Source: Citreicoccus inhibens (lineage in GTDB: Bacteria > Myxococcota > Myxococcia > Myxococcales > Myxococcaceae). Taken from it: DNA of 64,000 nucleotides. The notes under the pieces are model-generated. The model was not told where the DNA came from. It saw only the letters and a list, made by a program, of their open reading frames with translations, and made no database searches. Location of the stretch: positions 62,001 through 126,000 of the forward strand of contig NZ_JAHNZT010000022.1 in assembly GCF_019039035.1 (NCBI RefSeq). Reading direction: 5' to 3'. Position numbers and translations under genes: made by a program. Below are positions 4,227-40,539 of the stretch, in pieces (within the stretch, counting starts at the first letter, position 1; each line of letters starts with the position of its first letter).

Positions 4227-4419
4227 GGCGGATTTATAGTCCCGAGCGCGCGTCACGGGGGCGTTTTCACGACCAAAGTCCGTGGGAAAATCAAGTGTTA
4301 GTTTGACAGCCCTCCTGATCATCGTTACAAGCAATCGTGATCGCGAGGCCCGCGTCCCACTCGGGGGCGTCCCGCCAACCCGTTGATAAGACACGGGAAC
4401 TTTCAAGGAGACGGCGTCG

Positions 4420-5835
4420 ATGGCCAAGCCCAAGTCCGGGGCGAAGAAGGCGACTCCCGCTGCCAAGGCTGGTGCCAAGCCCGCCGCAAAGAAGGACAAG
4501 GCAGCCCGGCTGGACCTGATCAAGAACGCCTCCAAGAAGGTGGCGAAGGTCGAGGCGAAGCCGGCGAAGGCGCCCTCCGAGGGTACGAAGGGCAAGGCCG
4601 CAGCGGCGAAGAAGGTTCCCGCCGAGAAGGCCAAGCCTGAGAAGGCCGAGAAGGTCGTGGAGGCCAAGGGCAAGGCGAAGGCCGCGTCGGGGATGAAGGC
4701 CGCCGCGCCCGCCGCCAAGGCGGTGGGCAAGACCCCCGCCGCCAAGGCCGCCCCCGCCGAGGCTCCCGCTGGCAAGAAGGCGACGGGCAAGGGCGCCAAG
4801 GGCGCTGCCGCGGCCCCTGCGGCTCCGGCCGTGGATCGCCCCCGTCCTCGCGCCACCAAGCTCCCTCCTCCCGGCGAGCCCCTGACCAAGCGTGAGATGG
4901 AGCAGCTCCTCACGGCTGGCGAGGGCCGGGGTGTCATGGGCGAGGGCAGCCTCAAGGGCCGCCTCATCGTGAACGGCGAGATGCCGCATCTGGTCGTGGT
5001 GGGCCGGGACAAGCGCGAGCTGCTGTTCCTGCTCCAGGGCCCGGACCAGGAGGTGCTGCCGGCGTACGTGGACCACAAGGTCTCCGTCAGCGGCCTCATC
5101 CGCAAGACCACCAACCACAGCGGCGTGGTGGACGTGCGCAAGTACTCGGCGAAGAAGCCTGAGGTCGAGGTCCCGGAGGTCGTTCCGGTCGAGACCGAGC
5201 CCAAGCTGCGCTACCTGTCGCCAGGTGAGGTGTCGATGCTGGTGGCCGCGGGCATGGGCGCCGGCATCAAGGGCTTCGCCAGCATCCGGGGCAACCTGGA
5301 GATGACGGGCGAGGAGTACGTGCTCGTCGTGTCCAACGGAGGCACGCGCCAGCAGGTGTCCTTCATCGTGGAGGGCAAGGCGGCCGGTAAGGGGCTGCGC
5401 AAGTTTGTCGGTCAGACGCTGCAGGTGACGGGCGTCGTGGACAAGCTGGCTGGCTGGGGTGGGCGCATCGGCGCTGAGACCGTGGAGCCTCGGCCCTCCG
5501 AAGCGCGCGCGGTTCTTCGCGACGAGATGGAGATCGTTCACATCGAGGGCGAGGTGCCCACGAGCGTGGACGTGAAGCTCAACCACGGCCTCACCGTGCG
5601 CCTGCCCGAGCAGCCCGGCGCCACCTGGGCCATCGAGCCCACCATCGCCAAGCGCGTAGGTCTGCGCGAGGCGAACTTCGAGTCGGGTGCCAGTGGCGGC
5701 GGCCAGGCGACCCGCGAATTCTTCTTCACGCCGCGAAACCCCGGCACCTTCGAAGTGGAGTTCTTCCTGGCCAAGGCCTTCATGCCCGGTCAGGTCGAGC
5801 GCTCCTTCAAGATCAACGTGACGGTCAAGCCCTGA
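4420..5835 (+). CDS. Multidomain protein: Lys/Ala-rich tail, duplicated beta domain, chagasin-like C-terminus
   Basis: I do not recognise this 471-residue protein as a named gene. Residues 1-145 are a histone H1-like low-complexity tail of Lys, Ala and Pro, with many AAK and KKA steps. Residues about 154-245 and 265-357 look like tandem copies of one domain. Both start with a short helix (LTKREMEQLLTAG, LSPGEVSMLVAAG), then a Gly-rich SLKGRL or SIRGNL strand, a hydrophobic strand, and V(S/Q)V(S/T)G(L/V)(I/V), which suggests an OB-like beta barrel. Residues about 380-471 (KLNHGLTVRLPEQPGATW, then TREFFFTPRNPGTFEVEFFL) resemble the beta sandwich of chagasin-type (I42) protease inhibitors. A clear AAGGAG ribosome-binding site precedes the ATG. 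The basic tail suggests nucleic acid binding, by inference only. Confidence 0.7.
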   Translation: MAKPKSGAKKATPAAKAGAKPAAKKDKAARLDLIKNASKKVAKVEAKPAKAPSEGTKGKAAAAKKVPAEKAKPEKAEKVVEAKGKAKAASGMKAAAPAAKAVGKTPAAKAAPAEAPAGKKATGKGAKGAAAAPAAPAVDRPRPRATKLPPPGEPLTKREMEQLLTAGEGRGVMGEGSLKGRLIVNGEMPHLVVVGRDKRELLFLLQGPDQEVLPAYVDHKVSVSGLIRKTTNHSGVVDVRKYSAKKPEVEVPEVVPVETEPKLRYLSPGEVSMLVAAGMGAGIKGFASIRGNLEMTGEEYVLVVSNGGTRQQVSFIVEGKAAGKGLRKFVGQTLQVTGVVDKLAGWGGRIGAETVEPRPSEARAVLRDEMEIVHIEGEVPTSVDVKLNHGLTVRLPEQPGATWAIEPTIAKRVGLREANFESGASGGGQATREFFFTPRNPGTFEVEFFLAKAFMPGQVERSFKINVTVKP

Positions 5836-38238: not shown

Positions 38239-38985
38239 TTAGCGCCGCGCATGGATGCCGCACTCGTTGTGTTCAGCGGACTCCCACCACCACCGGCCCG
38301 CGCGCTCATCCTCGAACGGCTTCACCGCTCGCGTGCAGGGGGCGCAGCCGATGGACAGGTAACCGCGATCGTGGAGCGGGTTGTATGGGACGCCGTGCTC
38401 GCGCAGGTAGTTCCACACGTCACGCGCGGTCCAACTGGCCAGAGGGCTCAGCTTGAGGAGCCCGCCGTGCTCTCGGTCCACGGACAGCACGGAGACATCG
38501 GCGCGGTTGCTGGACTGATCACGCCGCAGTCCCGTCACCCACGCGAGTCGCCCCGCGAGCGCGCGTCGCAACGGCTCGACCTTGCGAATCGCACAGCATT
38601 CCTTTCGAGCGTCGACACTCTTTCGAAAGGAGAAGTGGCCGTGCTCGGACTGGAGGGCCTCCAAGCGCTCGTGGTCGGGGAAGAACGTCTCCACCGTGAC
38701 GCCGTAGCGATTGCGCACCACCTCCATCAGCTCATACGTCTCGGGCGGGAGGCGGCCCGTGTCGAGCGTGAGCAGCCGAAGGCTCCGCGCATGTCGGCGT
38801 GACATGTCCACCAGGACCATGTCCTCGGGGCCGAAGCTGGTGGCGATGACCGCGCGCGCGCCGAAGCGATGCTCGGCCCACGCGAGGACCTCCTCGGCGG
38901 GAGCGCTCGCGAGCGAGGTGCCCGTGGCGAGCAGCTCTTCTTCAGAGACAGTGGTTTCGACTGGGACAGGGCGAACCGCGGACAT
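38239..38985 (-). CDS. cysH: Adenylylsulfate (APS) reductase, CysH family with [4Fe-4S] motif
   Basis: This 248-residue thioredoxin-dependent reductase yields sulfite. Cys130-Cys131 (ECCAIRKVEPL) and Cys214/Cys217 (IGCAPC) form the CC...CXXC set that binds a [4Fe-4S] cluster and marks assimilatory APS reductases; PAPS-specific CysH lacks it. The catalytic Cys242 lies in the C-terminal ECGIH. Direct use of APS agrees with the decayed APS kinase tail on CysN. I chose the ATG at 38985 (MSAVRPVPVETT), which has AAAGGAG just upstream; starting at 39141 would put the coding region across the attenuator hairpin. It is the first gene of the assimilation operon. Confidence 0.94.
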   Translation of the reverse strand: MSAVRPVPVETTVSEEELLATGTSLASAPAEEVLAWAEHRFGARAVIATSFGPEDMVLVDMSRRHARSLRLLTLDTGRLPPETYELMEVVRNRYGVTVETFFPDHERLEALQSEHGHFSFRKSVDARKECCAIRKVEPLRRALAGRLAWVTGLRRDQSSNRADVSVLSVDREHGGLLKLSPLASWTARDVWNYLREHGVPYNPLHDRGYLSIGCAPCTRAVKPFEDERAGRWWWESAEHNECGIHARR

Positions 38986-39000
38986 CGGGGACTCCTTTGG

Positions 39001-39045
39001 ACGAAACGAAATGGCCCGCGCCTCGGAGGTCTCCGAGGGCGGGCC
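39001..39045 (-). terminator. Attenuator terminator in the cysH leader
   Basis: On the minus strand a hairpin with arms GGCCCGC-CCTCGGA and TCCGAGG-C-GCGGGCC and a GACC loop (39013-39045) is followed by ATTTCGTTTCG. It lies between the second Cys-rich leader ORF and the cysH ribosome-binding site, so reading through it is required to express the operon. GCCCGCC in its 5' arm (39038-39044) is complementary to GGCGGGC at 39101-39107, just after the leader Cys codons, which would give an antiterminator. Confidence 0.75.
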
Positions 39046-39077
39046 GCGCAAGCAGGACAGGGTTCGGGAAGGGTGGG

Positions 39078-39161
39078 TTACGCACTCCCCGCTGCTCGGC
39101 GCCCGCCAGAAGGCGGACACATCCGACAACAGGCCCCGCACGCGCCCGTCCCACGGCGCAC
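39078..39161 (-). CDS. Cys-rich leader peptide 2 of the cysH operon
   Basis: This is a 27-codon ORF (GTG start; a TTG three codons upstream is an alternative). Residues 8-15 read CGACCRMC, four Cys in eight codons, and the TAA lies 93 bases before cysH. Directly after the Cys codons the RNA can fold as CCGCC-TTCT-GGCGG (39103-39116, a 1:2 pairing), or GGCGGGC can pair with the terminator arm (2:3 pairing). That is the arrangement of an attenuation leader in which ribosome stalling at Cys codons permits readthrough. No strong ribosome-binding site is visible. Its function is inferred; the ORF itself is seen. Confidence 0.6.
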   Translation of the reverse strand: MRRGTGACGACCRMCPPSGGRRAAGSA

Positions 39162-39259
39162 GACGACCAAGCGGTCGCTCAGTGCGGCGTAAGACGTGTG
39201 GGACGACGTGGAGGACATGAAGGGCGAGCGCAGCGGAGACGAGGAGCGGGGCTGGACCT

Positions 39260-39276
39260 CACCTCGAAACGAGGTG
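39260..39276 (-). promoter_or_regulatory. Hairpin downstream of Cys-rich leader 1
   Basis: CACCTCG-TTT-CGAGGTG is a perfect 7-base-pair stem on the minus strand, extended outward by CTGG/CCAG. It lies 46 bases after the leader 1 stop codon. It lacks a U-tract, so it may be a pause or spacer structure and not a terminator. Confidence 0.45.
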
Positions 39277-39322
39277 GGCCAGAGAGGATTGAGGCGCGAG
39301 GTGTGGCGGAAGGGATGCTTGC

Positions 39323-39382
39323 TCAGTGCCACGCGCCCGGGAGGGCACAGCGACACATCCGACAGCAGCGGCGGCAACACAT
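39323..39382 (-). CDS. Cys-rich leader peptide 1 of the cysH operon
   Basis: This 19-codon ORF has an ATG start and reads MCCRRCCRMCRCALPGAWH, with six Cys among the first twelve residues. It begins about 28 bases after the predicted transcription start. The segment coding CCRMC is nearly identical in DNA to the one in leader 2, at 15 of 16 bases. No Shine-Dalgarno sequence is evident. A density of Cys codons this high is very unlikely by chance and suggests a sensor of charged Cys-tRNA upstream of the sulfate-reduction genes. Confidence 0.6.
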   Translation of the reverse strand: MCCRRCCRMCRCALPGAWH

Positions 39383-39417
39383 CGCGGCGGTCGGAGTGGA
39401 GGTTTGCATCGGCGTGC

Positions 39418-39447
39418 ACGGTACGTTCATCCCTTGCGCTTCGTCAA
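39418..39447 (-). promoter_or_regulatory. Promoter of the cysH operon leader
   Basis: On the minus strand TTGACG (39442-39447) is followed after 18 bases by TACCGT (39418-39423), a reasonable sigma-70-type pair. It lies just after the cysA stop and would start an RNA that runs through both Cys-rich leaders into cysH. Confidence 0.5.
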
Positions 39448-39474
39448 TGTGGGGACGGCGCGGTGCATGGCGGC

Positions 39475-40539
39475 TCAGATGGCGTAGTCGCCAACGAAGA
39501 CCCTCGCGGAGCGGACGTCCGCGAGGACCGAGTCGCCTTCGACCACGCCCAGCGCCTCGAACTCCGAGCGTGGGACCTCCACCGCCAGCTCGTCGCCGGT
39601 GGGCAGGCGCAGGAGCACCTTCACGTAGCCACCCACGGGCTTCAGGCGCTGCACGCGGCTGGCGCCTTCGGGATGTCCCAATCCCACCGGTGTCCTCGCG
39701 AGCTTGATGTCATGCGGACGCACGAAGGCGTGCACAGGCTCGCCTTCGCGGGCGGCCTCGGGGGCGCTCACCACGAGCGAGCCCATCTCCGCGCGGCCCT
39801 CGCGCACCCGACCTCGGAGGATGCTGGTGCCTCCCACGAAGGACGCGACGAATGGGGTGGTCGGCCGGTCATAGATGTCCTCGGGAGGCCCCGCCTGCGC
39901 GACCTGTCCTCCCGACATCACGACCACATGCTGGGAGATCTCCAAGGCCTCTTCCTGATCATGCGTGACGAGGAGCGTGGTGATGCCCGTGCGGACATGC
40001 AGCGCATGCAGCCACTCGCGCAGCTCCACGCGGACGCGGGTGTCGAGCGCCCCGAAGGGCTCGTCCAGGAGGAGCAGCCGCGGCTGGATGGCGAGCGCCC
40101 GGGCGAACGCGACGCGCTGCCGCTGGCCGCCAGAGAGCTGGCCCGGGAGGCGCTCTCCCAGGTCATCCAACTGCACGAGCGAGAGCATCTCCTCCACGCG
40201 CGTGGCGACCTGCGCACGGGGAATGCGCCTTAACTCCAACCCGAAGGCGATGTTCTGCCGCACCGTCATGTGACGGAACAGCGCGTAGCTCTGGAACACG
40301 ACGCCCACGCCGCGCTGCTGCGCGGGGAGCCCCGTACAGTCCACGCCGTCGATGTGGATGGCTCCTGCGTCCGCGATCTCCAGGCCCGCGATGAGTCGGA
40401 GCAGCGTGGACTTGCCCGCGCCGGAGGGGCCCAGAAGCGACGTGATGGCACCCGTGGGCGCGCGAAATGAGACGTCCGCGACGGCGGGCAGATGGCTCCG
40501 AGTGAAGTGCTTGGTCAGGTGTTCGACGATGACACTCAT
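39475..40539 (-). CDS. cysA: Sulfate/thiosulfate ABC transporter ATPase
   Basis: This 354-residue ATPase drives sulfate import. Walker A GPSGAGKST is at residues 37-45, followed by LSGGQRQRVAFARALA, Walker B LLLLDEPFGALD and the switch His in LLVTHDQEEALEIS. A TOBE-like C-terminal domain with FVRPHDIKLAR is typical of CysA. Its ATG overlaps the cysW stop (ATGA). It is the last gene of the uptake operon; the 489 bases that follow it hold the regulatory leader of cysH. Confidence 0.95.
   Translation of the reverse strand: MSVIVEHLTKHFTRSHLPAVADVSFRAPTGAITSLLGPSGAGKSTLLRLIAGLEIADAGAIHIDGVDCTGLPAQQRGVGVVFQSYALFRHMTVRQNIAFGLELRRIPRAQVATRVEEMLSLVQLDDLGERLPGQLSGGQRQRVAFARALAIQPRLLLLDEPFGALDTRVRVELREWLHALHVRTGITTLLVTHDQEEALEISQHVVVMSGGQVAQAGPPEDIYDRPTTPFVASFVGGTSILRGRVREGRAEMGSLVVSAPEAAREGEPVHAFVRPHDIKLARTPVGLGHPEGASRVQRLKPVGGYVKVLLRLPTGDELAVEVPRSEFEALGVVEGDSVLADVRSARVFVGDYAI

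Follow-up and report, generated by a model that had tools for sequence, protein, structure and literature searches.

A candidate tandem cysteine-sensing attenuator in the leader of a myxobacterial cysH operon

The window analysed here is a 64,000-nucleotide stretch of the Citreicoccus inhibens genome. Its minus strand carries a gap of 489 bases between the end of cysA (39475) and the start of cysH (38985), and all leader features described below lie on that strand. The first gene downstream of the leader is cysH (38239..38985), preceded by a Shine-Dalgarno-like AAAGGAG (38998-38992). Genes for a siroheme-synthase-like protein, a tetrapyrrole methylase, CysD, CysN, a CysJ-like flavoprotein and a CysI-like reductase follow in that order. 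The names are our reading of Pfam domains, namely PAPS_reduct for CysH and CysD, EF-Tu GTPase for CysN, Flavodoxin_1/FAD_binding_1 for the CysJ-like and NIR_SIR for the CysI-like protein, and NAD_binding_7 with TP_methylase for the siroheme-synthase-like protein and the methylase. In our reading the genome also holds a cysK-like gene behind a cysE-like gene, with no leader between the two. The gap itself contains the elements that an original prediction, made from the letters alone, had placed there: a TTGACG and TACCGT promoter, a 19-codon ORF with six Cys (MCCRRCCRMCRCALPGAWH, then stop), a 27-codon ORF (VRRGTGACGACCRMCPPSGGRRAAGSA, then stop), a GC-rich hairpin at 39045-39013 followed by ATTTCGTTTCG, and CCGCC, GGCGGGC and GCCCGCC segments that can pair as 1:2, 2:3 and 3:4. 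Its letters, coordinates and pairings were right, whereas comparison with relatives indicates that the starts of both ORFs had been set too far downstream.

The -35 element TTGACG (39442..39447) is identified from the sequence and from relatives, and the -10 element TACCGT (39418..39423) lies 18 nt from it. TTGACG with a spacer of 17-18 nt recurs in all 29 family cysH leaders scored for both ORFs (see below) and in all seven cysK leaders examined. ORF1 (39323..39409; 28 codons, MQTSTPTAAMCCRRCCRMCRCALPGAWH, then stop) starts at ATG 39409, 8 nt after the predicted -10; this start was chosen because its MQTSTPTAA.. aligns with the MTHSTPTAA.. of relatives. An in-frame ORF1 start lies 7-11 nt after the -10 in 25/29 cysH and 7/7 cysK leaders, and in the remaining four cysH leaders the first start is 18-34 nt away from it. 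These short distances suggest that ORF1 is probably translated leaderless or near-leaderless. A strict consensus scan of 38900-39600 returned no promoter-like and no terminator-like site, in our view owing to a weak -10 and a bulge in the terminator stem.

The Cys cluster of ORF1 (39347..39379, six Cys) stands out in a scan of the window for dense Cys codons. Read in six frames, the 64 kb hold a single place with at least six Cys in 12 codons, 39382-39347, and three with at least five. The genome (9.05 Mb) has two copies of the string TGYTGYMGNATGTGY, encoding CCRMC, and they lie in the cysH leader, 236 nt apart; the same pattern read backwards, as a control, occurs once. ORF2 (39078..39218; 46 codons, MSSTSSHTSYAALSDRLVVVRRGTGACGACCRMCPPSGGRRAAGSA, then stop) has four Cys and is assigned to ATG 39218 by comparison. 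This start is internal to the transcript, not at its 5' end, and no Shine-Dalgarno sequence was seen before it in the window. Rfam gave one hit in 38500-39900, below the gathering threshold (E 4.6), on the opposite strand and outside the leader. No Rfam family, aptamer or T-box matched the window leader, and none matched the cysK leaders or that of genome G036. Nor did NCBIfam or Pfam hold a model for the leader peptides tried (five in one search, four in others).

The second ORF is followed by a switch with mutually exclusive pairings. Region 1, CCGCC (39112..39116), comes after the last Cys codon of the ORF2 cluster, and region 2, GGCGGGCGCCGAGCA (39093..39107), lies inside ORF2 past the cluster. 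Region 3, GGCCCGCC, is the opening of terminator 2, a 3:4 stem-loop (39013..39045; -29.4 kcal/mol) with the U-rich tail ATTTCGTTTCG at 39002..39012. An antiterminator made of the 2:3 pairing and a nested middle pin (39038..39107) is predicted for transcripts that do not yet include region 4 and whose region 2 is free of ribosomes. It folds at -37.9 kcal/mol in the partial transcript and at -3.4 kcal/mol with a ribosome at the stop codon. The 118-nt unit 2 as a whole folds at -67.0 kcal/mol, against -47.8 +/- 3.4 in 200 shuffles (z -5.6). The antiterminator wins thermodynamically without any ribosome as well, so the default state would be set by kinetics and folding order.

The same anatomy recurs in the family. 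A T-rich tail (at least 5 T of 10) follows terminator 2 in all 29 genomes. Counting an antiterminator where at least half of the terminator's 5' arm is held, the fold predicts one for 26/29 second units, 21/29 first units and 7/7 cysK units; with a ribosome at the stop codon it predicts none in unit 2 (0/29), and likewise none in unit 1 or the cysK units. Across 17 units, 94% of cells are paired in the terminator form against 33-48% when the pairing is slid, and 79% in the antiterminator against 42-53%. The 1:2 helix has 89% and the terminator 2 stem (3:4) 97% of cells paired in these units. Cys-rich ORFs ahead of a cysH operon, an intrinsic terminator before the first gene and an exclusive antiterminator predicted to be blocked by a ribosome at the stop codon together make it well supported, at the level of predicted structure, that unit 2 has the complete anatomy of a Cys-responsive transcription attenuator.

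Conservation of the Cys codons among relatives, whose failure the original prediction had named as counting against it, was found: the pair of Cys-rich ORFs is retained in 30 genomes from three genera. Of the 96 family genomes searched, 51 bear cysH, and the tandem is present in 30 of these, with 27/27 genomes of g23, 2/2 of g1 (the genus of the window) and 1/1 of g4. It was not found in the other 21, one of which, G062, is cut off by the end of its contig. We take g23 to hold Myxococcus and Pyxidicoccus because it has leaders and contigs in common with named loci. A cysH homologue search of 60 relatives matched 26, and contigs of named genomes supplied 134 confirmed cysH loci, the best 80 of which were used. 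In Myxococcus, Pyxidicoccus and the sister species of the window, two Cys-rich ORFs precede cysH, the second followed by a stem-loop and a T-rich tail.

The family was also searched with a covariance model, R1, built on 17 training units that match by construction (nine g23 species, two g1, two g4 units, two g8 and two f7 MAGs). Because the model sets in only at the cluster's last Cys codon, it does not select for Cys-rich ORFs. In the 96 family genomes it marked 30 loci (L110-L139), 29 of them with both ORFs together; the other, L119, covers unit 1 of the g4 leader, where R1 hit unit 2 separately; since these two units were treated apart, L119 stands outside the 29-genome counts. At E 0.01 R1 matches 62/96 genomes, and we relied on hits below 1e-10 and on G036 (5.9e-7). 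Seven weaker hits were inspected: those in G086 (5e-8) and G085 (3e-7) are plain terminators at the end of another gene, and those in G029, G060, G063, G083 and G084 are cysH leaders with hairpins and no Cys ORF. All eight units found outside training (seven before cysK and that of G036) have a Cys-rich ORF in place.

ORF2 is 42 to 59 codons long among the 29 genomes, and an in-frame ATG lies 105-195 nt before its stop in 29/29, against 0/29 and 1/29 for the other two frames. In the family alignment the end of ORF1 has six columns with Cys in 15-20 of 20 distinct rows, and length changes among the cysK leaders are whole Cys codons. Against coding, pairwise differences show no clear excess at third codon positions (1045/882/705 by position in ORF1, 2215/1920/2801 in ORF2, 22/20/16 in the cysK ORF). 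Cys is encoded by TGT in 65-71% of cases in the cysH leader ORFs, compared with 24% in cysK leaders and 8% in cysH genes, the species not being independent; in the window TGT accounts for 7/11 Cys codons of the leader against 10/40 in 13 window genes (p 0.03). This bias may be selected or may reflect RNA pairing, and a slow-codon effect is possible.

Co-variation was assessed by swapping pairing partners among 19 units chosen from 72, without unit 1 of g1 or g23. Native 2-with-3 duplexes averaged -40.3 kcal/mol and swapped ones -35.7, and 0/20000 random permutations were as good as the native arrangement. Within a subset of eight (g1, g4, g8, two of g23, f7, f2 and cysK, three of them from g23 genomes, the cysK unit being one of the three), 4/40320 permutations were as good, the real one included. 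The window's own unit did not discriminate (rank 11/19). As judged by predicted duplex energies, the swap shows that changes in region 2 have gone hand in hand with changes in region 3 across the family. Column-wise covariation of the antiterminator was modest, with four pairs in which both partners differed (3.3 in shuffles) and a score reached by 35/500 shuffles. We prefer the swap because arm 3, which has two partners, is nearly invariant, and because outgroups misalign.

The first unit is more variable. In the window it comprises a 1:2-like GCCC-TCCC-GGGC pin at the end of ORF1 (39335..39346), hairpin 1 (CTGGCCCACCTCG..GGTCCAG, 39252..39282) at the position of a terminator 1, and a C-rich, G-poor linker between ORF1 and ORF2 (39219..39322). 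Hairpin 1 folds at -19.0 kcal/mol and lacks a U-tract, its tail CCCCGCTCCT having 2 T of 10, and the fold predicts no antiterminator; the intrinsic terminator and the stop-codon-sensitive antiterminator of unit 2 thus have no counterpart here. We set our own cut for calling terminator 1 strong, asking for a stem of -20 kcal/mol or better together with 5 T or more of 10; 12/29 genomes pass and 17/29 fail, four of the latter (L111, L122, L125 and L135) having strong stems and missing on T count alone. A T-rich tail follows terminator 1 in 15/29. The two stacked Cys sensors of the original prediction thus fit the family, where 12/29 genomes have a strong hairpin 1 and T-rich tails after both units. 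In the window the Cys ORF of unit 1 is kept while the U-tract and predicted antiterminator are missing. By its predicted structures, then, the tandem has support at the level of the family; in the window only half of it is intact, and the Cys ORF is the one part of unit 1 demonstrably retained. An ancestor of the window's genus may have had two complete attenuators, and the window's first unit may now act in another way, through Rho or ribosome supply, or be in slow decay.

We consider it highly probable that this leader attenuates transcription in response to cysteine, by means of two ORFs with Cys codons placed one after the other. The cell would probably gauge cysteine by the speed of ribosomes over the leader Cys codons. 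Given the ORFs with their conserved frame, the exclusive and co-varying pairings and the gene context, all shown by the analysis, we infer translation, ribosome stalling, termination, a response to Cys-tRNA and a role for unit 1 in the window. Transcription would start just before ORF1, which would be read leaderless or nearly so. With Cys-tRNA plentiful, a ribosome would reach the ORF2 stop and cover region 2 and the middle pin; region 3 would then pair with 4 and the polymerase stop before cysH. With Cys-tRNA short, the ribosome would stall in the ORF2 Cys cluster, covering region 1, so that the 2:3 antiterminator could form and the polymerase enter the sulfate-reduction operon. In many relatives ORF1, with its own terminator and antiterminator, would add a checkpoint, giving two cysteine checks in series; in the window the first would lack its U-tract and retain its Cys ORF. 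Two complete serial attenuators could quite possibly multiply read-through and give a steep, roughly squared response to cysteine loss. This serial reading draws on the 12 relatives with both terminators intact.

The state of unit 1 leaves room for a simpler account, in which only unit 2 attenuates in the window and ORF1 is a relict or a leaderless entry that supplies ribosomes to ORF2. We regard this as unlikely overall, yet it is the alternative that survives best. The missing U-tract and antiterminator in the window suit it, as do the 17/29 genomes with terminator 1 below the strong cut (the four on T count included), and an ORF2 without a Shine-Dalgarno sequence could draw its ribosomes from ORF1. 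However, the 17 genomes below the cut still have 5-7 Cys in ORF1, close to the 6-8 of the 12 that pass, and a relict or loading ORF would need none.

A second alternative has unit 1 steer Rho-dependent termination: fast reading of ORF1 would leave Rho the C-rich linker, a possible Rho loading region, and Cys stalling would alter its access. The linker's C-over-G skew of 0.29-0.49 on the RNA strand (60-base windows) suits this idea, and a part for Rho has been proposed both for mycobacterial Cys leaders without terminators (PMC1262725) and for mgtCBR (PMC3641672). We find it doubtful, and more so than the simpler account, since a ribosome stalled on ORF1 would not itself cover the linker and 15/29 genomes have instead a T-rich tail after hairpin 1.

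That the Cys-rich nascent peptides sense metal or oxidants rather than Cys-tRNA seems very improbable. Cys clusters could bind metal, and copper-responsive Cys-rich uORFs exist in Proteobacteria. Against this, Cys spacing is not fixed among lineages (CCRRCCRMCRC, CCCCC..CACC, CCCCACCCC, 12 Cys in a row), and the downstream genes (PAPS_reduct, PALP, NIR_SIR) fit cysteine synthesis. An ordinary cysA-operon terminator followed by a cysH promoter, with ORFs arising by chance, is scarcely credible: the leader does come directly after cysA in the window, but where checked the upstream gene varies (L030 has a Uma2 protein there, L034 an FMN-dependent dehydrogenase) while cysH keeps its leader, and the Cys ORFs and their frame are conserved.

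The favoured reading, Cys-dependent attenuation in series, has several relatives among known systems. In the trp, his and ilv attenuators a short ORF in the leader contains codons for the amino acid that the operon makes, the RNA forms 1:2/2:3/3:4 pairings, and an intrinsic terminator lies before the structural genes. The cysH leader resembles them in its product-amino-acid codons, pairings and terminator, and differs in sensing cysteine, in having two serial ORFs, the first probably leaderless and the second without a Shine-Dalgarno sequence, and in an antiterminator that wins in the fold even without a ribosome. Tandem T-boxes place two copies of one sensor kind in a leader. As described in PMC5666159, tandem glycine riboswitches do likewise. 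The cysH leader, by contrast, has no aptamer, and its sensor would be the translating ribosome.

Cys leader peptides have been predicted before actinobacterial cys operons, with no obvious terminators there (PMC1262725). Leaderless polycysteine sORF attenuators are described for mycobacteria (Canestrari et al. 2020, as related in PMC9031893 and PMC13236596), where control is of translation of the downstream genes (PMC9031893). The likeness lies in Cys-codon runs before cysteine genes and, if ORF1 is read as proposed, in the leaderless start; the cysH leader differs in its strong predicted terminators and antiterminators and in its doubled unit. Unlike a leader without a terminator, it has a predicted terminator 2, with a T-rich tail in 29/29 genomes. 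The leader of Salmonella mgtCBR likewise combines a pair of short ORFs with a pair of attenuators, with ATP and proline as signals and stem-loops unlike intrinsic terminators (PMC3641672). In the cysH leader both ORFs are Cys-rich, in the 29 tandem leaders and in L119, so different signals are not expected, and terminator 2 is intrinsic-looking. Searches of the open-access literature (PMC) yielded no report of serial peptide attenuators that share one amino acid.

Cys leader peptides and tandem attenuators are thus each known, and a serial pair for one amino acid would be unusual. If such a pair does operate, it would be the first example of ribosome-mediated attenuators for one amino acid arranged in tandem, double at cysH and single at cysK. 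The leader appears to represent, outside actinobacteria, a family of transcription attenuators that respond to cysteine and use intrinsic terminators. This family offers a natural experiment in sensor copy number: cysH has two units and cysK one, related genera have one or none, and some first units are half decayed. What a second like attenuator contributes (steepness, lower leak or noise control) is open to reporter tests in laboratory strains of Myxococcus. The leader could explain how sulfate reduction is shut off when these predators take cysteine from prey. Other genera of the bacterial family have a DNA-operator-like palindrome before cysH. This near-palindrome, TCCGYTATAnYGGA (up to two mismatches; 0.001 per sequence in a shuffled control), looks like a transcription-factor operator and occurs in genera with and without Cys ORFs: at L005, L007, L009, L010, L012, L013, L023, L032, L038, L110, L111, L127, L137, L160, L161 and L163-L169, and also in the cysK leader L146. 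At L021 a gene for an Rrf2-family regulator (Pfam) ends just before cysH; the palindrome was not found there.

Outside the three tandem genera, a single Cys ORF is present in 2/6 genomes of g8, where three others have hairpins without a Cys ORF and G062 is cut at the contig end. The cysH leaders of g12 (4/4), g15, g16 (6/6), g17, g3, g11 and g19 have no comparable Cys cluster; g16 has weak stretches, with at most three Cys in 15 in L165 and L166. The g8 leader L150 (G063) has two successive terminator-like hairpins and a leader ORF that consists of no more than ATG ACG CTC CCC TGA, which looks like a loss of its Cys codons. In g26, 0/16 genomes have a cysH match at E 1e-40, though related genera have cysH.

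The cysH tree (35 rows; L021-L024 are absent, having been missed by the motif filter, and others were not entered) groups g4 with g8 and g12 (96/92) and gives g1 no fixed place, so a single origin of the tandem is not shown by it. The g4 unit L011a is closest to L011b and to the g8 unit L012 (z 31 and 29), and L011b also resembles g23 unit 2 and the cysK unit (z 26). ORF2 of this g4 leader, L011 (= L119), has 12 Cys codons in a row, mostly TGC repeats. At L037 (BNCN01000014.1), labelled Comamonas sp. KCTC 72670, a Myxococcus-type cysH stands behind tandem leader peptides identical to those of L134 (G101, g23), and the species label looks wrong.

Single units also precede other genes. Seven g23 genomes have one, outside the R1 training set, before cysK with a leader like MSLPLPTTGAQCCCCCRVACACC..; the downstream gene is PALP (cysteine-synthase-like) by Pfam in L140 and has the same start in all seven. 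G036, from another family, has a unit with MRTVSATSFDHTAACCCCACCCCRPAGRAPGDFA and a stop before a NIR_SIR reductase gene, with cysH further down. Searched across 195 genomes of the phylum, R1 matched 40 at 1e-4 or better, those outside the family being only G036 and the training MAGs G138 and G140. Elsewhere in the order, single units precede cysH or a sulfite-reductase operon.

Among 67 further cysH loci (L043-L109), seven have at least four Cys in 15 codons upstream, and two of these, L076 and L084, were looked at. In L084 (Cytophagales bacterium) a SAM-I riboswitch at 4481-4595, the only gathering-level Rfam hit, is followed at about 4603-4734 by an ORF ending in TTCCCCCC and a stop, before cysH, possibly placing a SAM sensor and a Cys sensor in one leader. 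In L076 (Ignavibacteriae bacterium), at about 4343-4520, MTSITFSNMNRRAAACMCCCQCTGDYSVFREGESI and a stop precede a stem-loop and T-run, with a small gene and cysH downstream, apparently a separate Cys attenuator in another phylum.
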